Shown in pieces: positions 32,713-44,376 of a stretch of DNA of 64,000 bases. Location: positions 620,001 through 684,000 of the forward strand of contig JAOZHT010000001.1 of assembly GCA_026014735.1 (NCBI GenBank), written 5' to 3'. A program made the translations under genes and the position numbers. The stretch's first letter is position 1; every line of letters starts with the position of its first letter. The notes beneath the pieces are model-generated. The model did not search any database. It worked only from the letters and a program-made list of their open reading frames with translations, and was not told the DNA's origin. The DNA comes from Candidatus Bathyarchaeota archaeon (GTDB lineage: Archaea; Thermoproteota; Bathyarchaeia; Bathyarchaeales; Bathycorpusculaceae).

Positions 32713-33741
32713 GTGTTGGCTGAGCGGGCGATGGTAACCAAGAATGGCGCGATTCTGCTAGGGGACTCTGTTGCCTGCGACGCATTCTGCGCTGAGCGTC
32801 CCCTGCGGGTTGTGACCCATGCCCACGCAGACCACCTCTACGGCATACGCAAAAGCGTAAAGTCCTGCGAGAAGGTCCTGATGACAAAAGCCACCCGGGA
32901 CCTCACCGAAACCCTCAACGACAACCTCAAACTCCAAGACGAAAACGTCAAAATTCTCCAATACGGCAAACCCTTCCGCTACAGGGACGAAAAAATCACG
33001 TTACTCCACGCCGACCACATCTTGGGCGCCTGCCAGGTTCTTGTCGAAGACGCAGGCGGCATCCGCATTGCCTGGTCAGGGGACTTCCGCTTGGAGGGCA
33101 CCGAGGCAGTGGACTGCGATGTGCTGGTGGTGGAAGCCACTTATGGGAGTCCGTCTTGCCGACGCAACTTCGATGTGGATCCGCGGTCGCTGCTGGTGGA
33201 TATGGTGGAGAAGCGGCTGCGGGGCGGGGCGGTCTATGTTTTCGGTTACCACGGCAAGATCCAGGAGGTCATGCAGATTCTTCGTAACGCCGACGTAGCG
33301 GTGCCTTTTGTTATGCCTGAGCGTGTCTATGAGGTCACCCGGGTCTGTGAGCGTCACGGCATGAACTTGGGTTGCATTTCGCTTTCCAGCAGCAGTGAGG
33401 GCCATGAGCTTTTGGATGGTAACTTGCCCTGCGTGGCATTCTATCATATGAATCAGCGTTCGCATGTGGGTCTGCGTAACGCGCGTATCTGCGTGAGCGG
33501 CTGGGAATTCCAGAAGCCCTGCCGGCAAATCGGCGACCGCGAACACCTCATCGCCCTTAGCGACCACAGCGACTTCGACGGCCTCCTCGAGTACGTTAAA
33601 CGCACACGCGCCAAGCAGGTTATCACCGATAACTACCGCAGCAACGGCGACGTCCTCGCTAAAGAAATCCGTCGGCGCCTCGGCATATCCGCGGTGGCAC
33701 AACCTAAGCCCCTCGGAGTACCCACACAGACAACCCTCTAA
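32713..33741 (+). CDS. Metallo-beta-lactamase fold nuclease-like protein
   Basis: This 342-residue protein of the mRNA 3'-processing/Ysh1-like group shows VVTHAHADHLYGI, LLHADHILGACQVLV, IAWSGDFRLEG, VVEATYGSPSC, a short beta-CASP-like part (VYVFGYHGKIQEVMQIL) and the final ALSDHSDFDGLLEYV. The zinc-binding His and Asp residues are intact. Predicted nuclease acting on RNA or DNA. The first start is GTG 32713; TTG 32716 and ATG 32731 are close alternatives. It is probably in the UPF0200/0201 transcript (11-base gap). Confidence 0.8.
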   Translation: MLAERAMVTKNGAILLGDSVACDAFCAERPLRVVTHAHADHLYGIRKSVKSCEKVLMTKATRDLTETLNDNLKLQDENVKILQYGKPFRYRDEKITLLHADHILGACQVLVEDAGGIRIAWSGDFRLEGTEAVDCDVLVVEATYGSPSCRRNFDVDPRSLLVDMVEKRLRGGAVYVFGYHGKIQEVMQILRNADVAVPFVMPERVYEVTRVCERHGMNLGCISLSSSSEGHELLDGNLPCVAFYHMNQRSHVGLRNARICVSGWEFQKPCRQIGDREHLIALSDHSDFDGLLEYVKRTRAKQVITDNYRSNGDVLAKEIRRRLGISAVAQPKPLGVPTQTTL

Positions 33742-33810
33742 GCAAGCTGCCTGCTGCCTGCCATTGCCTGATGCTTCTTTATAATAACGATTATTAGTTG
33801 GAAGCCCGCT

Positions 33811-36579
33811 TTGGTGGTGCAAGAGGAGAGGGCTTGGTTGCCTAGGGTTGTTTTAGTTACTGGCGCCACAGGTTTTATCGGCGGGCAGGTTTCTAGACGC
33901 CTAGCTATGCATGATGATGTACGGTTGGTTCTGCTTGTTCGCTCATCCAGCATAGATGAAGCTGTTCTGCGGGTCAAGCGATCATGGCATGAGCAGCCCA
34001 ATCTGGCACGAGACGTAGGCGGCAAAATCAAAGTAATCAGAGGCGACCTAACCCAGTCCAAACTCGGCCTAGCACCAGAAGACTACCGCTGGCTTACCCT
34101 CCGCCTCACCCACATTATCCACTGCGCAGCCGACACCACACCGAACATGCCCCTCCCCCTGCTTCGTAAAATAAATGTGGAAGGCACCGCCAACGTCATC
34201 GAACTTGCCCGCGCCGTTCACCGTGACCATGGCTTGGAACGGCTGGGTCTGGTTTCAACGGCTTTTGTAGCTGGAAAACGCCGAGGCAGCATAGACGAAG
34301 AGGACCTCACCGACGCCTTTGGCTTCTCAAGCCTCTATGAGCAAACCAAGTATGAAAGCGAGAAGCTAGCCTCCAAAGCCAAAGCAGAGTTGCCGCTAAC
34401 GGTTTTCCGACCCAGCTTAGTGGTGGGCGACTCAGAAACCGGCGAAGTCAAAACCTTCAACACCATTTACTACCTTCTCAGGCTCTACCTGACCGGTCAA
34501 CTGCGCATTGCTCCCGCCTCTGCCAAGATGAAGCTCAATATCGTTCCCATAGACTACGTCGCCGATGCCATCATCAAGTTAACCTTCGACGAGGCAGCGG
34601 CGGGTCTGACGCTGCATTTAACTGCGCCTAACGAAAAATCTCCCTCTGCCGGGGAACTTGTTGAAGCCGTCCGGCTATGGGCTGCCCAAAGCATGGGTTT
34701 GCATCTGCCCAAAACACGATTTGTTTCCCTCTCCACCCGGACGTTGCGGGCTGGGCTTAAACTGCAGCAGGCGCTTGTGCCCTCAAACCGAAACGCCGCC
34801 GCACTTCAGACGCTGGCACCCTATTTTAGCCAAAACCAAACATTCAGCCGCAAAAACACAGACCGCCTCCTGGGCAGCTACAGCCCAGACTGGCAACGAT
34901 ACCTCCCCCGCCTGCTCCAGTACGCGGTCTACTATAGCTTTTTCCATCGCTCCGAACGCACGGTGCATGAGCAGATCCTGTTTCGGCTACAGAACAAATC
35001 CAAGCCAGTGCGCTACCACGAAATCGTCGGCGAGAAGGTGGTGGACTTTAGCACCGAGCAGGTACGGCAGGAGATGCTTAGGACTGCCGCCGCGCTGCGG
35101 GCGTTGGGGGTGGGTCGGGGCGATGTGGTGGCGGTGGTGGGTAACAATTGCCTGCGTTACTTGATGGTGGATGTTGCCGCTGGACTGGTGGGCGCTGTTT
35201 TATGTCCACTCTACGTTACCAGCCCCGTGGCTGACATTAACCGGGTGCTCTTGGAAGCAGAAGCCAGGGTGCTGTTTGTGGGTGCACCTAATCTGCTGGC
35301 TGAAGTCAACGCCATCTCATCTGGCGTTCCCGTCGTCAGCTTCTGCCCCGGTGTCCCCGGAGCCCCGGAGGGGGTTATGTCCTGGGAAACTTTTCTGGCT
35401 AAGGCAGTGCATACCAAGCCTCCTGCTTATTCACCCGTTGACTTTAGCGACGTAGCTACCATACGCCACACCTACGGCTCCACAGGTGAACCCAAGGGCG
35501 CCTGTCTTAGCCATGGCAGCCTACGCTACATCGCCGAAGCCCTTGCCTCCAATTTTCCCTGGAAAACCCGCACCACTCAAGCCTCCTACCTGTCCTTTCT
35601 TCCCCTAAACCACGTTGCCGAAGGCATAACTGCTGCCTACTCGCCCTACTTTTTCCCTGCAACAATGGACATCTACTATCTTGCAGACTACCAAAACCTC
35701 CCCTGTGCCCTCGCATTGGCTAAGCCATCCGTGGTGTTCTCTATCCCTCGTTTCTATGAAAAACTATGGTCCAATGTCGCGGCGTCTAGTTTGGGGCGTC
35801 AGTACCTTGCGGCCGAAGTCGGCATAAAGAAGCGGATGCTGGGGAGAATTCTGCGCTCAGCAGCCCTTAGAAAAGCAGGGTTAAACCATTGTAGCCAATT
35901 CATCGTTGGCGCAGCCTGCTCAAGCGAAGTGCTTTTGCGCAGTTTCCATGAGTTAGGCATCGAAATCTACAATGCCTATGGCTTGTCTGAGGCGCCTCTT
36001 GTAGCTATGAATCCCCTGGGCAAAAACACCTTTGACACCGTCGGTTATCCCCTCAAGCAAACAGAGCTCCGGATCGACGAGGATGGGGAAGTGATGGTTA
36101 AGGGGCCGCAGGTCATGACTGGCTATTTTAACCGTGGCGGCTTGCAGTCTTTCAGAGGCGACTGGTTAGCCACAGGCGACATAGGCGAATTAACAGCGGA
36201 GGGACGGCTGAGGATTTTAGGCAGAAAAAAACATGTCATCGTGACTTCCTATGGCAAGAAGGTTCCTGTCGAGCGGATAGAAGCCTCCTTTAAGGCGCTG
36301 CCCTTTGTCAGGGAATGCCTGGTGGTGGGGGAGAATAAACCGTTCTGCAGCGCGGTGTTTTGGGTGGATGAGCAAAAAGAAGAACATAAAACCGAAATCG
36401 AGGAGGCTCTGGCGAGGATTAACTTGGAACTGGAGGGTCCCGCCCAGATTAAACGCTGCGTTGTGCTTGTAGGGGACATCGAGGCGGCGGGTTCAGCTGA
36501 GGCACTCAAACGCAAGCGCCAAGACCTGCTCAGTGTCGCCGAAGAAGCCACCGCATTCATCTACCAAAAAGCCCAATAG
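33811..36579 (+). CDS. Reductase-adenylation fusion (thioester reductase-like plus AMP-binding)
   Basis: The 922-residue protein joins two enzymes. Residues about 10-385 are an extended SDR of the thioester-reductase/fatty acyl-CoA reductase type: VLVTGATGFIGGQV binds NADPH and YEQTKYESEK supplies the catalytic Tyr and Lys. Residues about 390-922 are an acyl-AMP/acyl-CoA synthetase of the long-chain FadD15 type: HTYGSTGEPKGACLSH (near 552), YNAYGLSEAP, and WLATGDIGEL with GRKKHVIVTSYGKKV. No phosphopantetheine carrier domain lies between. Carboxylic acid reductases run A-T-R; this order is R-A. A TATA box (CTTTATAAT, 33777-33785) predicts a nearly leaderless TTG start. Product inferred: aldehyde or alcohol from a long-chain or isoprenoid acid. 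An HMG-CoA reductase gene follows. Confidence 0.8.
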   Translation: MVVQEERAWLPRVVLVTGATGFIGGQVSRRLAMHDDVRLVLLVRSSSIDEAVLRVKRSWHEQPNLARDVGGKIKVIRGDLTQSKLGLAPEDYRWLTLRLTHIIHCAADTTPNMPLPLLRKINVEGTANVIELARAVHRDHGLERLGLVSTAFVAGKRRGSIDEEDLTDAFGFSSLYEQTKYESEKLASKAKAELPLTVFRPSLVVGDSETGEVKTFNTIYYLLRLYLTGQLRIAPASAKMKLNIVPIDYVADAIIKLTFDEAAAGLTLHLTAPNEKSPSAGELVEAVRLWAAQSMGLHLPKTRFVSLSTRTLRAGLKLQQALVPSNRNAAALQTLAPYFSQNQTFSRKNTDRLLGSYSPDWQRYLPRLLQYAVYYSFFHRSERTVHEQILFRLQNKSKPVRYHEIVGEKVVDFSTEQVRQEMLRTAAALRALGVGRGDVVAVVGNNCLRYLMVDVAAGLVGAVLCPLYVTSPVADINRVLLEAEARVLFVGAPNLLAEVNAISSGVPVVSFCPGVPGAPEGVMSWETFLAKAVHTKPPAYSPVDFSDVATIRHTYGSTGEPKGACLSHGSLRYIAEALASNFPWKTRTTQASYLSFLPLNHVAEGITAAYSPYFFPATMDIYYLADYQNLPCALALAKPSVVFSIPRFYEKLWSNVAASSLGRQYLAAEVGIKKRMLGRILRSAALRKAGLNHCSQFIVGAACSSEVLLRSFHELGIEIYNAYGLSEAPLVAMNPLGKNTFDTVGYPLKQTELRIDEDGEVMVKGPQVMTGYFNRGGLQSFRGDWLATGDIGELTAEGRLRILGRKKHVIVTSYGKKVPVERIEASFKALPFVRECLVVGENKPFCSAVFWVDEQKEEHKTEIEEALARINLELEGPAQIKRCVVLVGDIEAAGSAEALKRKRQDLLSVAEEATAFIYQKAQ

Positions 36580-36673
36580 CCCCTGCTCCTGTGGACACAG
36601 TTACCGACGAGTTTGTGGCGGGCTAAGTTAAAGTTTAAAAGCCCATAATCGAACACTTCTGCAAGTGAATAAT

Positions 36674-37942
36674 ATGGCTAAGTCATCGGTTATCTCAGGC
36701 TTCTACAAGCTTACACCCAAACAGCGACTTGACCTCGTCGCGGACTTCGCAGGTTTATCCATGGAGGAAGTGGCGCTTCTCCAGCAGTCCTCATCGTTGC
36801 CTATTGAGGTGGCTGACCACATGGTGGAGAACCTCATCGGCGTCTTCCCTGAACCGATGGGTATCGCAGTGAATTTTCTAATAAACGGCAAAGACTACCT
36901 CGTTCCCATGGCGACCGAGGAGCCTAGCGTAATCGCCGCTGCCAGCTACGCAGCAAAGATGGTGCGGGACGGAGGAGGATTCAAAACGTCTTCGACTTCA
37001 CCGGTGATGATTGGGCAAATCCAAGTTGTCAAACTCGAGGACCCCGAATCTGCGCAGATGAAAATTTTGACTTCGCACTTACAGATTCTCAAGAAAGCTA
37101 ACGAGCAGGACCCGGTGCTTAACTCGTTTGGCGGCGGCGCAAAGGATCTGGGCGCCAAAGTCATTGATACACCAATGGGGCGCATGCTCATTGTCGAGTT
37201 ATACGTTGACTGCCGCGACGCCATGGGCGCCAACGCCGTTAATACCATGTGCGAAGCCGTCGCGCCCCTCATCGAGGAACTCATAGGCGGCCAAGTCATT
37301 TTACGCATAATCTCCAACTTAGCCACACGGCGCCTCGCCAAAGCCACCTGCATTGTGCCCAAGGAAGCCGTGGGGGGAGCAGCAGTCGTGGACGGCATCG
37401 CTTACGCCAGCGCATTCGCGGTCGCTGATCCATACCGGGCCGCAACCCACAACAAAGGAGCCCTCAACGGCATATCAGCGGTGATTTTGGCGACGGGCAA
37501 CGATCACCGTGCCATCGAAGCCGGGGCACACGCATACGCCGCACTTAGGGGACCCTACACCGCTTTTTCTACCTGGACCAAAAATGGCAGCGGCGACTTG
37601 GAAGGCACGATAGAGTTGCCTATGGCTGTGGGGCTTATCGGCGGCGCAGTAAAAACTCATCCTATCGCAAAAATCGCCATGAAAATCCTAAACGTTAAAT
37701 CCGCCAACGAATTCGCTGAGGTGCTTGTCGCAGTGGGTTTAGCACAGAATCTTGCTGCACTCCGCGCGCTCTCCAGCGAGGGTATCCAGCGGGGGCACAT
37801 GTCGCTTCATGCACGCAACATTGCGGTGAATGCAGGCGCAAAGGGCGAGCAGGTTGAGTTGGTTGCGGAGCGGATGGTAAAGGAACGCAAAGTCAGAGTG
37901 GATCGAGCTAAAGAGATACTTGACGAGTTAGCAAAAAAGTAG
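36674..37942 (+). CDS. Hydroxymethylglutaryl-CoA reductase, class II type
   Basis: The 422-residue enzyme (425 with GTG 36665) has the class II layout: an N-terminal SGFYKLTPKQRLDLVADFAGLS, catalytic Glu in VPMATEEPSVIAAASYAAK, AMGANAVNTMCE, LRIISNLATRR, catalytic Lys in ATHNKGALNGI, Asp in ATGNDHRA and a C-terminal GHMSLHARN with the catalytic His. Class II enzymes are known from Pseudomonas and some archaea such as Archaeoglobus. The reaction is HMG-CoA to mevalonate for isoprenoid lipid synthesis. A TATA-like GTTTAAAAG lies about 37 bases upstream, so it has its own promoter. A T-rich terminator follows. Confidence 0.93.
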   Translation: MAKSSVISGFYKLTPKQRLDLVADFAGLSMEEVALLQQSSSLPIEVADHMVENLIGVFPEPMGIAVNFLINGKDYLVPMATEEPSVIAAASYAAKMVRDGGGFKTSSTSPVMIGQIQVVKLEDPESAQMKILTSHLQILKKANEQDPVLNSFGGGAKDLGAKVIDTPMGRMLIVELYVDCRDAMGANAVNTMCEAVAPLIEELIGGQVILRIISNLATRRLAKATCIVPKEAVGGAAVVDGIAYASAFAVADPYRAATHNKGALNGISAVILATGNDHRAIEAGAHAYAALRGPYTAFSTWTKNGSGDLEGTIELPMAVGLIGGAVKTHPIAKIAMKILNVKSANEFAEVLVAVGLAQNLAALRALSSEGIQRGHMSLHARNIAVNAGAKGEQVELVAERMVKERKVRVDRAKEILDELAKK

Positions 37943-38037: not shown

Positions 38038-38892
38038 TCAGTTCCGCCCGAGTTGTTCTTCGCCTAAACCTCTATGGCTTTCCAATATTTGCTTTTGCGC
38101 TGAAATTTCCCGCGTTTTTTTGGCAATTAACATTGCACTGTTTGCTTTCAAAACTATTTTGCGGAGATAACTCAGGGGTGTGTAGACTCTTGAATCATTA
38201 ACGTAGTGTGGTATGATTTGAACCTCAAAACCCTTTTCGTTTAGTAAATGAGTTATCGCAGCCCAATCCAATTTCAAATGGACATCCGCTAATGAGTAAT
38301 CAATCTGGGGCAAGTTGAGCCCATGAAATTTTTTGTAGACCGCGCTTGTCTGTTCATCGGTGAAGTAATACAGGCGCAAAATAAGTTTACCTGCTGCGTT
38401 AAGCGAACTATCAGCGTCGGGTTGTTCATGGTCAAAGTAAAGAATTCCCCCGGGCTTAACTAAGTCTGCAAGTTTTTCGATGGTTTTTAGGTAGTTGGGT
38501 AGGTGATGGATGACGGAGTAGCTTGTTACAAGATCAAAATCGCCTGCTATCTCTGCTTTGTCGATGTTCAAGTTTAATATCTCTAAGCGTTTGGTGTCTA
38601 CCATATGGTGTTCTTTTTTCTTTAGTCTTTCACACATGTCAGGTGAGATATCTATTGCTGTCACTGAATATCCAATATTCAACAGTTTCTGTGTGATGTT
38701 CCCTGTGCCTGCGCCGAAGTCTAACGCCCTGAAATTAGGTTTTTCTATTTGCGAGGTCAAAATCCTCAACAGTTTGTGTAGCCTTTTTTGCTCGCTTCGG
38801 TTCCAAATTTCGTTGTGTATTAAATCATAATATTGGGCTTCTTTCTGATGAACAGCAATATTTCCTTTTATCACTGTTTCATAATCTAACAA
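38038..38892 (-). CDS. Class I SAM-dependent methyltransferase
   Basis: This 284-residue protein has motif I ALDFGAGTGNITQKLL (residues about 50-66), post-I VTAIDISPDMCERL, motif II DLVTSYSVIHHLPN and motif III LVKPGGILYFDHEQPD, the standard order for UbiE/small-molecule methyltransferases. The substrate is unknown. The start is TTG at 38892 with GGAG nine bases upstream and a TATA-like GCATATAAG near 38945-38953. Base composition is more A+T rich than its neighbours, a possible sign of transfer. Confidence 0.8.
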   Translation of the reverse strand: MLDYETVIKGNIAVHQKEAQYYDLIHNEIWNRSEQKRLHKLLRILTSQIEKPNFRALDFGAGTGNITQKLLNIGYSVTAIDISPDMCERLKKKEHHMVDTKRLEILNLNIDKAEIAGDFDLVTSYSVIHHLPNYLKTIEKLADLVKPGGILYFDHEQPDADSSLNAAGKLILRLYYFTDEQTSAVYKKFHGLNLPQIDYSLADVHLKLDWAAITHLLNEKGFEVQIIPHYVNDSRVYTPLSYLRKIVLKANSAMLIAKKTREISAQKQILESHRGLGEEQLGRN

Positions 38893-40264: not shown

Positions 40265-42439
40265 ATGATAAAAAAAGCCCTAGCGATGACAGCAATACTC
40301 CTCATCGCCATATCAACATTTGTTAGCTTCAACCTAACCACAAACGCATTAACTGCAAACCCCACCACCCTCAAACTCTACGTCAGCCCAACAAGCGTAC
40401 TCGCAGACAACACCACATATACCTGCATATTTGTCCAATTAACCGACCAAAGCGGAAATCCAACCCGAGCCCAACAAGACATCACAATCAGCCTCTCCTC
40501 GAGTGCCCCCGGCATAGGAACAGTAGACCCAACCATAACCATACCCATAAACGCAACCTATGCATCCGCCAATTTCTCCTCCACCTACCTCCCAGGGACC
40601 ACAACAATCACAGCCACAGCGCCTAACTACGCAACCGTAACCTCAACCCTGACCACCATCGGACCCTACCCCTACAAGACAACCGTCTACGGGTTCCCAA
40701 CTGTCCTGCCCGCCGACGAAGGAACATACGCTGCAGTAATGGTTCAGCTGCAGGATTCAAGCGGTTATCCTGCCCGTGCACCAAGCAATGTAACTGTATC
40801 GCTTTTCAGCTCAAACAACGTCACTGGCTCCGTGACTCCAACCATAACAATTCTTCAAGGTCAAACCTTTGCCATCGCAAACTTTACATCTACAAATTCG
40901 GTTGGAGAGACCAATATTACTGCAGTGGGACATGGATATGCTTCTACAAAGCAACTGTTTACGACAAAAGCCCTTGCACCTCCTCAAGCAGCACAGAAGC
41001 TCATGATTTTCAAGGGCCCCTCGCAAGTCCTCGCAGATAATAATGCGTATCCACAGGTCGCCGTCCAAATGCAGGACGATTTAGGAAACCCTGTAGCGCT
41101 GCCTTCAAACACAACGGTGACCATAGCATCAGCTGATAACCTGATAGCCACAATAGACGATGAAATAACGGTACTGGCTGGCTCCTCCTATGCCGTAGCC
41201 ACGCTTAAAACAACCTATAGGGCTGGTGATATTACATTGACTGCGGCAACAAACGGATTAGAAGCCGCTACAGAATATTTGTCTGCAGTCGGCTATACTC
41301 CGTCAAAGCTAGTTGTCTTCTGTGCTCCATCAGGTTTGCCTGCGGATCTCTCTACTTACCCGGTGATTCAGGTTCAACTTCAAGATAACCAAGGCCGACC
41401 CGCCAGAAACCCCGATTCAAACACGACTCTTAAGCTGTTCTCTTCTGATCTAACCGTTGGGGACGTTGATTCATCAATCATGATTCCTTTCGGCCGTACA
41501 CTTGCAAGGGGAAACTTTACTTTCACTAACAGCTCGGGCACCTCAACAATCACTGCTATGGGATCCAACTACTCCACAGGACAAGCCATCATAACAGGCT
41601 ACATAATTGATTTCTTCCCAATGCAGGCAACCCTGACCGTTAACCCAAGTGCCATCAGCGCTGGCGGGCAAGTTGCAGTATCCGCCTATGTATCTGACGG
41701 CGATGAACCGGTAACTGAGGTCGAGGTGACCTTCTCATCCAATAACGGCGGAACCTTCACAGCGATACAGCAAGGCGAAGGATACTACAACACAACCTTT
41801 ACGGCTCCAAACCTATCCCAAACAGGTACATGCACTGTAACGGTTGAGGCTTCTAAAATCGGATGGCTCGACAGCGAGGATTCCGCACAAATAACGGTTA
41901 ACCCCATAGCTACTCCTACGCCGACGCCCTCTCCAACAGCGACGCCCTCCTCTACCCCCACGCCAACTCCAACTCCCGCCCTATCAGCAACCTCCTCTAC
42001 CCCTACGCCTACTCCCCAACCATCCGCTGCCCCAACCAGTGACAGCCAGACGACATTGCAGTTATGCATTAAAGATATCGAGGGTAACCCCCTTAGTGGT
42101 GCAAGTGTTTCTTCGATAGCGCAGCCTGAAGGGGCAAAAACTTTGTCCGGTGTAACCAACAAGACCGGCTACGTCAGCTTTAAGGATGCTACCAACGGAT
42201 CGTACACGTTTGAATTGACTAAGGCAGGCTTTGAACAGGCCAACCGAACGATCACTTTCAATGGTCGACTCTTAGCGTATACGCTCTATTTATCAAACGG
42301 TGTGTCCGACTCTAGCGTCACCAACCCTGGCGATAATACTCCGATTTTGGTGGTGGTCGTTGTGTTGGTGGTTGTGGTTGCGGTTGTGGCTGGCGTCCTT
42401 TTGGTGCGGCGACGTTGGGAGATAAAGTTAACTTCTTAG
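40265..42439 (+). CDS. Membrane-anchored surface protein with four Ig-like repeats
   Basis: The 724 residues begin with a signal peptide (MIKKALAMTAILLIAISTFVSF). Four tandem beta-sandwich repeats of about 105 residues follow (about 34-455), each with a '(S/G)xxLPADxxTYxxVxVQLQDxxGxPA' core, like invasin/Big-type domains. Next come another Ig-like domain (about 455-550), a Pro/Thr/Ser stalk (about 550-595), a carboxypeptidase-regulatory-like fold (TLQLCIKDIEGNPLSGA) and a C-terminal transmembrane helix ILVVVVVLVVVVAVVAGVLL with a basic tail. It is likely an adhesin or cell-wall stalk. It shares its promoter element with the adjacent pilus operon and has AGGTCCAGG as a ribosome-binding region. 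Confidence 0.8.
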   Translation: MIKKALAMTAILLIAISTFVSFNLTTNALTANPTTLKLYVSPTSVLADNTTYTCIFVQLTDQSGNPTRAQQDITISLSSSAPGIGTVDPTITIPINATYASANFSSTYLPGTTTITATAPNYATVTSTLTTIGPYPYKTTVYGFPTVLPADEGTYAAVMVQLQDSSGYPARAPSNVTVSLFSSNNVTGSVTPTITILQGQTFAIANFTSTNSVGETNITAVGHGYASTKQLFTTKALAPPQAAQKLMIFKGPSQVLADNNAYPQVAVQMQDDLGNPVALPSNTTVTIASADNLIATIDDEITVLAGSSYAVATLKTTYRAGDITLTAATNGLEAATEYLSAVGYTPSKLVVFCAPSGLPADLSTYPVIQVQLQDNQGRPARNPDSNTTLKLFSSDLTVGDVDSSIMIPFGRTLARGNFTFTNSSGTSTITAMGSNYSTGQAIITGYIIDFFPMQATLTVNPSAISAGGQVAVSAYVSDGDEPVTEVEVTFSSNNGGTFTAIQQGEGYYNTTFTAPNLSQTGTCTVTVEASKIGWLDSEDSAQITVNPIATPTPTPSPTATPSSTPTPTPTPALSATSSTPTPTPQPSAAPTSDSQTTLQLCIKDIEGNPLSGASVSSIAQPEGAKTLSGVTNKTGYVSFKDATNGSYTFELTKAGFEQANRTITFNGRLLAYTLYLSNGVSDSSVTNPGDNTPILVVVVVLVVVVAVVAGVLLVRRRWEIKLTS

Positions 42440-42531: not shown

Positions 42532-44376
42532 GTGAATACTGCGGGTCAAAAGATGCAAAAAAAACCAGCGAAAAAGTCCTTCAAAGAACCAATCAACAAA
42601 GCAATAGCCAAAATAGAACAAACACGCAACTCCCTAAACAAGAGACTAAAAATAAAAAGACCCAAAATCAAAACTTCAAACCCTATTAAAAAAATCAAAC
42701 TTCCAAAAATCTCACTTCCAAAACTTGTCGTGACCCCCAAACAAAAAACGGAAACCGACAAGCCATCCAAATCAAAGTTTCCGAAAATTGGCTTCAGAAA
42801 GAAAACAAAAGAGCAGCAAACCACCATCCAACCTGTTCCACTTCTCCCCAAGAACGTAAAAATCGTCGATAAATATCCCCTTAACGAACCTTTCTCTCAG
42901 GTCGTCATCGTGCAGGACCCCAAAACGGGCGAGCACAAATACATCCTCGATGAACTCCAGTTGGACCCAATGGAACGAGGCATATACAACCGTATCCTCG
43001 AGATATTGTTGGCTGAAATCCAGTCTCCTAAGGAAGAAATCATGGATCCTCGAAAGTTCTTCGCTGAAGAAGCCAAAAAAATCGTGGATCAATACCGCAT
43101 CAGCTTAGGTTGGCTGCCCGACGTTTCATGGTATAAGATTCTTTATCATGCAGAGCGGGATCTGGTCGGCTTTGGCAAGATCGATTCGTTGATGCGTGAT
43201 CCTAACATAGAAGACATTAGCTGTGACGGTGTTAATAAGCCCGTTTACATCTGGCACCGCACGTTTGAAAGTATAGAAACAAACCTGCAGTTCGAAAGTG
43301 ATGAGGACCTCGATAACCTAGTCGTAAAACTCGTCCACATGGCGGGCAAGCACGTTAGCAGCGCCTTCCCGATTGTGGATGCCTCTCTACCCGGCAAACA
43401 CCGCCTCGCCATCGCCTACCGACGAGAAATCACCCCGTTCGGCACTGCCTTTACCATACGCAAATTCCGTGATGACCCCTACTCGATAATCGACCTCATC
43501 AACATCGGAACCTTCACCGAAGAAATGGCTGCTTACCTTTGGATTTGCCTCGAAAACCGCGCTTCCGTGATGGTTTTAGGTGGCACAGCTGCAGGAAAAA
43601 CCACGGCGCTAAACGCCCTAGGATGCCTCATCAAGCCAGGCAGCAAAATCATGACTATCGAGGAAACTGCTGAACTCAACCTTTCCCATGAGAACTGGGT
43701 GTCGCTGATTGCGCGGCAGAGTTACGGTTTAGGCGGCAGTACGGTGGGTGAAGTGGCGCTTTTCGATTTGGTTAAAACTTGTATGCGGCATCGCCCCGAC
43801 CTGATGATTGTGGGCGAGGTGCGTGGTCAGGAGGCTTATGTGCTGTTTCAGGCTTTGGCCACTGGTCACGGCGGCATGTGCACGATGCACGCTGAGAACG
43901 TGGAGTCAGCTGTGAAGCGTCTCACTCAGAAACCGATGGATATTTCACCTGCATATATTCCGCTGATGAACATAGTCATGTCGGTTCAGCGTGTACATCT
44001 CATTAAAAACGGCGAGAAACGTGCTTTCCGACGTGTCCTCGCAGTTAACGAGATCGTTGACTTCGAGAATTACGTCAACCCCTTCAAGTGGGACCCTATT
44101 AAAGATAAGCAAATTATCGATTTGGACTCGAGCTTTTTGTTTACAAGCATCTCTGAGCGGCTGGGTCTTAGCCGCGAACGGCTCTTAGAGGAGATGAAGC
44201 GTCGTAGTGATGTCTTGCGGTGGATGCGAGAGAAGAACATTCGCAGCTACAAGGAAGTTGCCACGATAATTGCTGAGTACTATGCGAGACCAGATGAGAT
44301 ACTCGCGAAGATAGCGCCTCCGGAAATGAACGTGGCTGTGGGATTGGAGGTTGAAACCATTGACGTTTCTAAGTAA
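42532..44376 (+). CDS. Type IV pilus/Tad-type secretion ATPase (locus 2)
   Basis: The 614-residue ATPase has a very basic, probably disordered N-terminal 100 residues (many Lys/Pro, e.g. IKTSNPIKKIKLPKISLPK), then the N2 domain (DLVGFGKIDSLMRDPNIEDISCDG) and the RecA core: Walker A GGTAAGKTTALN near 349, TIEETAELNL, Walker B LMIVGEVRGQE near 423, His box TGHGGMCTMHAEN. The core closely matches the ATPase at 22168. The GTG at 42532 is favoured by the promoter position; ATG 42553 is an alternative. Confidence 0.92.
   Translation: MNTAGQKMQKKPAKKSFKEPINKAIAKIEQTRNSLNKRLKIKRPKIKTSNPIKKIKLPKISLPKLVVTPKQKTETDKPSKSKFPKIGFRKKTKEQQTTIQPVPLLPKNVKIVDKYPLNEPFSQVVIVQDPKTGEHKYILDELQLDPMERGIYNRILEILLAEIQSPKEEIMDPRKFFAEEAKKIVDQYRISLGWLPDVSWYKILYHAERDLVGFGKIDSLMRDPNIEDISCDGVNKPVYIWHRTFESIETNLQFESDEDLDNLVVKLVHMAGKHVSSAFPIVDASLPGKHRLAIAYRREITPFGTAFTIRKFRDDPYSIIDLINIGTFTEEMAAYLWICLENRASVMVLGGTAAGKTTALNALGCLIKPGSKIMTIEETAELNLSHENWVSLIARQSYGLGGSTVGEVALFDLVKTCMRHRPDLMIVGEVRGQEAYVLFQALATGHGGMCTMHAENVESAVKRLTQKPMDISPAYIPLMNIVMSVQRVHLIKNGEKRAFRRVLAVNEIVDFENYVNPFKWDPIKDKQIIDLDSSFLFTSISERLGLSRERLLEEMKRRSDVLRWMREKNIRSYKEVATIIAEYYARPDEILAKIAPPEMNVAVGLEVETIDVSK

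Follow-up and report, generated by a model that had tools for sequence, protein, structure and literature searches.

A carrier-free fusion of a thioester-reductase-type domain with an acyl-CoA synthetase, a candidate acid reductase of anaerobic archaea and bacteria

The window analysed here, a stretch of 64,000 nucleotides from the bathyarchaeal genome G000, contains an intact gene whose product carries a reductase of the SDR thioester-reductase type at the N-terminus and an acyl-CoA synthetase of the ANL type at the C-terminus. On balance, this protein is probably a carrier-free acid reductase, in which free CoA would replace the phosphopantetheine arm used by other enzymes of this chemistry. 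The family is patchily distributed and common to anaerobic archaea and bacteria. It is also conceivable, with less confidence, that such an acid reductase, independent of a phosphopantetheinyl transferase (PPTase) and made of a thioester reductase placed ahead of a long-chain CoA ligase, is central to a four-gene lipid pathway of these organisms that is so far undescribed, has spread horizontally and makes a long-chain aldehyde- or alcohol-derived lipid. Descriptions of the architecture, of the gene set or of its setting were not found in the open-licence literature, which is weak evidence of novelty.

Domain architecture, distribution and conserved residues

The frame is open from a TTG codon at 33811 (the GTG codons at 33814 and 33817 are alternative starts), and the strand opposite to it is full of stops. 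Pfam searches assign the N-terminal half to NAD_binding_4 (179 bits) and the C-terminal half to AMP-binding (166 bits) followed by AMP-binding_C_3 (25.6 bits, with a cut-off of 20.8), as summarised in Table 1. No PP-binding domain is matched in the fusion even at E 0.01, in a search in which the adenylation-carrier-reductase (A-carrier-R) protein of the congener G019, used as positive control, was matched. AlphaFold2 models almost all of the chain with confidence (pLDDT 87.6, pTM 0.86). By structure comparison the modelled ligase half resembles ANL acyl-CoA synthetases of the PDB, and a sequence search links the reductase half to the MxaA reductase domain (E 1e-27). A carrier hidden between both halves was also considered and is rejected for lack of a PP-binding match; the model, moreover, shows an ordered linker. 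The sequence-only reading, which proposed a reductase followed by a synthetase in the reverse of the usual order and with no carrier, is in these respects confirmed.

Table 1. Positions of the features described in the text (window positions unless a contig is named).
Feature	Position	Strand	Remarks
Metallo-beta-lactamase-fold gene	32713..33741	+	Left flank of the insertion; adjoins the HMG-CoA reductase gene directly in 12 congeners
TATA-like box TTTATAAT of the fusion gene	33778..33785	+	25 bases upstream of the TTG; consensus-like match only
Reductase-synthetase (R-A) fusion protein	33811..36579	+	922 aa; intact open frame, Pfam, AlphaFold2
SDR thioester-reductase core	33856..34572	+	Residues 16-254; Pfam NAD_binding_4, residues conserved in the family
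AMP-binding (ANL acyl-CoA synthetase) core	35029..36129	+	Residues 407-773; Pfam AMP-binding; altered P-loop HTYGSTGEPKG
AMP-binding C-terminal domain	36232..36474	+	Residues 808-888; Pfam AMP-binding_C_3; A10 lysine K900 after the domain
Conserved promoter-like element GTTAAAGTTTAAAAGC of HMG-CoA reductase	36627..36642	+	Common to congeners without the fusion
Class II-type HMG-CoA reductase (TIGR00532)	36665..37942	+	Right flank; judged unrelated to the fusion
Four-gene cluster, example	L027:9552-15472	+	
Four-gene cluster, example	L044:6676-12465	+	
Fifth gene	L027:15469-15951	+	
Fifth gene	L026:5999-6574	-	
Fifth gene	L029:8368-8829	+	

Full-length homologues with the same domain order (45-48% identity) are present in three of the 31 sampled congeners (G007, G011 and G025), a further one in G402, which represents another genus of the same family, and, from a scan of public prokaryote genomes, 25 members in contigs of several phyla. 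A 26th match (L054), which covers only part of the ligase, was left out of this number, and the copies of L029 and G402, being identical in the tree, represent one record. As the same order recurs in all of these independent sequences, the gene is not an artefact of assembly, the objection that the earlier reading had itself raised. The member contigs are labelled as Bathyarchaeota, Methanobacteriaceae, Methanomassiliicoccales, Thermoplasmata, Chloroflexi/Anaerolineae, Spirochaetes, Prevotella, Bacteroidaceae, Lachnospiraceae and KSB1, among others; labels of bins can err, but many independent bins agree on this spread. The supposed archaeal speciality of the fusion is unsupported, since members also occur under such contig labels as Chloroflexi, Bacteroidota, Lachnospiraceae and Spirochaetes. 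The fusion is present in 6/398 genomes of the phylum of the window and in 6/139 of the Methanobacteriaceae (the family of G423), and there are six full-length matches among 396 genomes of the class of G424 (Anaerolinea).

In the phylogenetic tree the other bathyarchaeal copies form a clade (support 100/100) that excludes the window copy, which lies on a long branch (1.27) of unsettled placement. Vertical descent of this copy together with those of its congeners is consequently unsupported, and it was probably acquired separately from them. GC content and codon use of the gene are ordinary, and a recent foreign composition was not seen. At L053:7995-10924 (+), in a Methanomassiliicoccus bin, the frame is broken into two ORFs, owing to either a sequencing error or a broken gene.

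An alignment of 19 members shows that the reductase residues R44, S149, Y176 and K180 are conserved across the family and the GxxGxxG motif in nearly all members, the window copy having all of these; the ligase residues E727, D790, R805 and K900 are likewise conserved and retained in the window copy. With the catalytic residues of both halves conserved, activation followed by reduction in a single chain, as first proposed, is the best reading of the protein. The ANL fold, the A5, A7 and A8 motifs and K900 are present in the window copy, but the P-loop and the A10 context, canonical in most relatives, are altered in it: TSGTTG is replaced by TYGSTG (S555Y and T557S), unlike in the other 18 aligned members, and LTxNLK by SAEALK. 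Because of the altered ATP loop, the synthetase half of this copy may be changed or weakened. If it were impaired or repurposed, the protein would mainly reduce acyl-CoA (or another thioester) fed by separate ligases, and other AMP-binding ligases are indeed encoded in the genome. We consider this unlikely, even though 14 of the 18 departures of the window copy from near-invariant positions fall in the ligase half: the four ligase residues named above are kept, the 922 codons are open, and comparable drift of the ligase half in other members (16 departures in L041 and 12 in L039) means that the drift is no proof of ligase loss. One half of this particular copy may nevertheless be inactive, the condition under which the earlier reading was to be given up.

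Proposed reaction and relation to known enzymes

In the proposed reaction the C-terminal ANL half would convert a carboxylic acid, probably a long-chain one, with ATP into acyl-AMP and then into acyl-CoA, which the N-terminal SDR half would reduce with NADPH to an aldehyde or an alcohol. This route appears to be the most economical one, given that CoA and carriers share the terminal pantetheine arm; soluble CoA in the role of the covalent arm would make a PPTase unnecessary. Long-chain fatty-acid-CoA ligases (NCBIfam) give the highest scores with the ligase half, which also aligns end to end with standalone ligases of about 600 aa from Anaerolineae (338-367 bits); for the reductase half the highest scores come from thioester reductases and the SDR family PRK07201. 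The NCBIfam cut-offs are not reached by either half for any family (for TIGR01746 the reductase half scores 148 bits, below the curated cut-off of 213.35), so that the transfer of a substrate from these families is weak. The kinship with long-chain fatty-acid-CoA ligases and the Bet3-fold partner described below nonetheless make the substrate lean, presumably, towards a long straight acyl chain.

A route without free CoA, in which acyl-AMP is the direct substrate of the reductase or the acyl group passes via an enzyme residue or a separate carrier, is improbable. The fusion into a single chain suggests channelling and the nearest kin of the reductase half act on carrier-bound chains, but the chain has no carrier domain, the genome has no PPTase to load a separate carrier, and SDR reductases of the thioester-reductase type use thioesters.

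The free-CoA reaction invites comparison with carboxylic acid reductases (CAR), where the order is adenylation, carrier and reductase (PMC7744569). The fusion shares with them the two catalytic domain types and the proposed net conversion of acid, ATP and NADPH to aldehyde, whereas its order is opposite, it lacks a phosphopantetheine-binding domain, its genome lacks a PPTase, and both halves score higher with families other than CAR. By order, carrier and PPTase it does not belong to the CARs, and it would represent a novel form of their chemistry. A permuted CAR finds no support in the profile scores, which place both halves nearer to other families, although such an origin is still conceivable.

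The closest solved relative of the reductase half is the MxaA-type R domain of NRPS/PKS (PDB 4u7w, 170 bits with the family profile), which has the same catalytic residues; the extended-SDR fold with GxxGxxG, Ser/Thr and YxxxK is present in this half. However, the R domains of NRPS/PKS sit at the C-terminus of megasynthases and release carrier-bound chains, in contrast to the N-terminal, carrier-free position in the fusion. Regarding the ligase half, its closest kin by full-length alignment are the long-chain fatty-acid-CoA ligases (PRK06187, FadD11-type, about 600 aa), which stand alone without a reductase; the altered P-loop is a further difference of the window copy. Fatty acyl-CoA reductases (FAR) have the same NAD_binding_4 domain and would act on acyl-CoA, but they have no acyl-CoA synthetase of their own, the FAR structure 7eoz matches less closely (75 bits), and the FAR C-terminal domain is not among the Pfam matches of the fusion.

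Seven congeners (G019, G010, G015, G023, G026, G027 and G031) have instead an open frame of roughly 1070-1120 aa, the reductase region of which was picked up by a search with the fusion as query. The G019 protein (L025:1867-5073, minus strand), the one of these seven A-carrier-R candidates submitted to a full domain scan, shows the classical succession of AMP-binding, PP-binding and NAD_binding_4 (Pfam). A PPTase gene is present in all seven congeners, in six of them no more than about 0.6 kb away from the reductase match, and PPTase (PF01648) was found in none of the five fusion genomes searched (G000 and four others); this contrast gives a Fisher p of 0.0013, uncorrected for relatedness. Four archaeal controls also had no PPTase match, absence being the rule in archaea, most of which lack ACP and its processing enzymes (PMC3533463). 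What matters in this contrast is that a PPTase accompanies the A-carrier-R gene, whereas the fusion needs none. In a genus that otherwise lacks PPTases, the A-carrier-R and PPTase genes have the look of a cassette gained by horizontal transfer.

Insertion of the fusion gene beside HMG-CoA reductase

The gene that follows the fusion encodes HMG-CoA reductase (HMGR), as had been noticed from the sequence, on the same strand and 85 bases away. From this proximity, salvage of isoprenoid or ether-lipid precursors together with HMGR had been suggested, a possibility that now seems very unlikely. HMGR is single-copy in the genome of the window and is present in 35/37 sampled relatives, nearly all of which have no fusion; in 12 congeners it directly adjoins the metallo-beta-lactamase-fold gene with no fusion between them, and fusions elsewhere have other neighbours. 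Moreover, the promoter-like element shared with fusion-free congeners is placed in the window after the stop codon of the fusion and directly upstream of HMGR, so that a separate, conserved, TATA-type promoter of HMGR seems to have been kept. The HMGR partnership is rejected because of this promoter and of the uninterrupted gene pair in the 12 congeners. The simplest reading is that the fusion gene was inserted between the metallo-beta-lactamase-fold gene and the HMGR promoter, which would make HMGR its accidental neighbour.

Some other features of this region may be mentioned. The HMGR annotation is probably nine bases too long, since the congeners start at the in-frame ATG equivalent to 36674 (window 36665-36676). 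Downstream, a methyltransferase gene (window 38038-38892, minus strand) has a GC content of 0.40 and a GC3 of 0.43, far below its neighbours, and is possibly a recent acquisition. Read by eye, window 40265-42439 encodes a repeat protein of 724 aa that has a stretch rich in proline and threonine and, at its C-terminus, a hydrophobic segment; it is followed (window 42532-44376) by a 614-aa secretion-type ATPase-like protein.

The conserved four-gene cluster and its implications

At 20 of the 25 public loci the fusion is accompanied by at least one of three partner genes, which code for a CsaB-like protein of the polysaccharide-pyruvyl-transferase family, a protein of about 200 aa with a weak ATC_hydrolase match, and a GMC oxidoreductase in which a CxxCGxCxxGC motif, with its four cysteines, is invariant. 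The usual order is CsaB-like gene, fusion, 200-aa protein and GMC oxidoreductase, often with overlapping gene ends. All three partners are absent at L037, L039, L043 and L050, where the flanks are ample, as well as in the window and in G011; the contig L036 is too short to judge. A gene like the GMC oxidoreductase is found nowhere in the genomes of L036, L037, L039, L043, L050, G000 and G011, and G000 contains only a distant relative (25%) of the CsaB-like gene. The window copy is thus solitary. In three bathyarchaeal loci only, the cluster is followed by a fifth gene (about 160 aa, cysteine-containing, membrane-like) with no Pfam match.

The model of the 200-aa protein (pLDDT 87.6) matches the ligand-binding folds of TRAPPC3/Bet3, H-NOX and PoxR/MopR type, the top structural match being TRAPPC3 with covalently bound palmitate, which suggests that this putative lipid-binding protein of Bet3 fold handles a long acyl chain. 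In most relatives the fusion would work inside a mobile four-gene cluster, together with the CsaB-like transferase, the Bet3-fold protein and the GMC flavoenzyme. The least probable reading is a fusion like OleD-OleC of the long-chain olefin pathway (2-alkyl-3-ketoacid reductase and beta-lactone synthetase), a pair that is also SDR plus ANL without carrier and that would agree with a weak 3Beta_HSD match in the SDR half (31 bits), but the NAD_binding_4/thioester-reductase match is far stronger (179 bits) and neither an OleA thiolase nor an OleB hydrolase was recognised among the conserved neighbours.

The cluster, of which the open-licence literature yielded no description, is the more interesting lead. 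Both solutions, A-carrier-R next to a PPTase and the carrier-free fusion, occur within one genus, which offers a clean natural comparison. If the proposed activity is true, the fusion would be a one-chain acid-to-aldehyde enzyme that works without phosphopantetheinylation, it would show how archaea without PPTase carry out carboxylic-acid-reductase chemistry, and it would be of potential use in biocatalysis. Since most copies lie in the conserved cluster, Bathyarchaeota, methanogens, Anaerolineae and Bacteroidales may be expected to have a product in common, probably a lipid-like one, which can be directly searched for.
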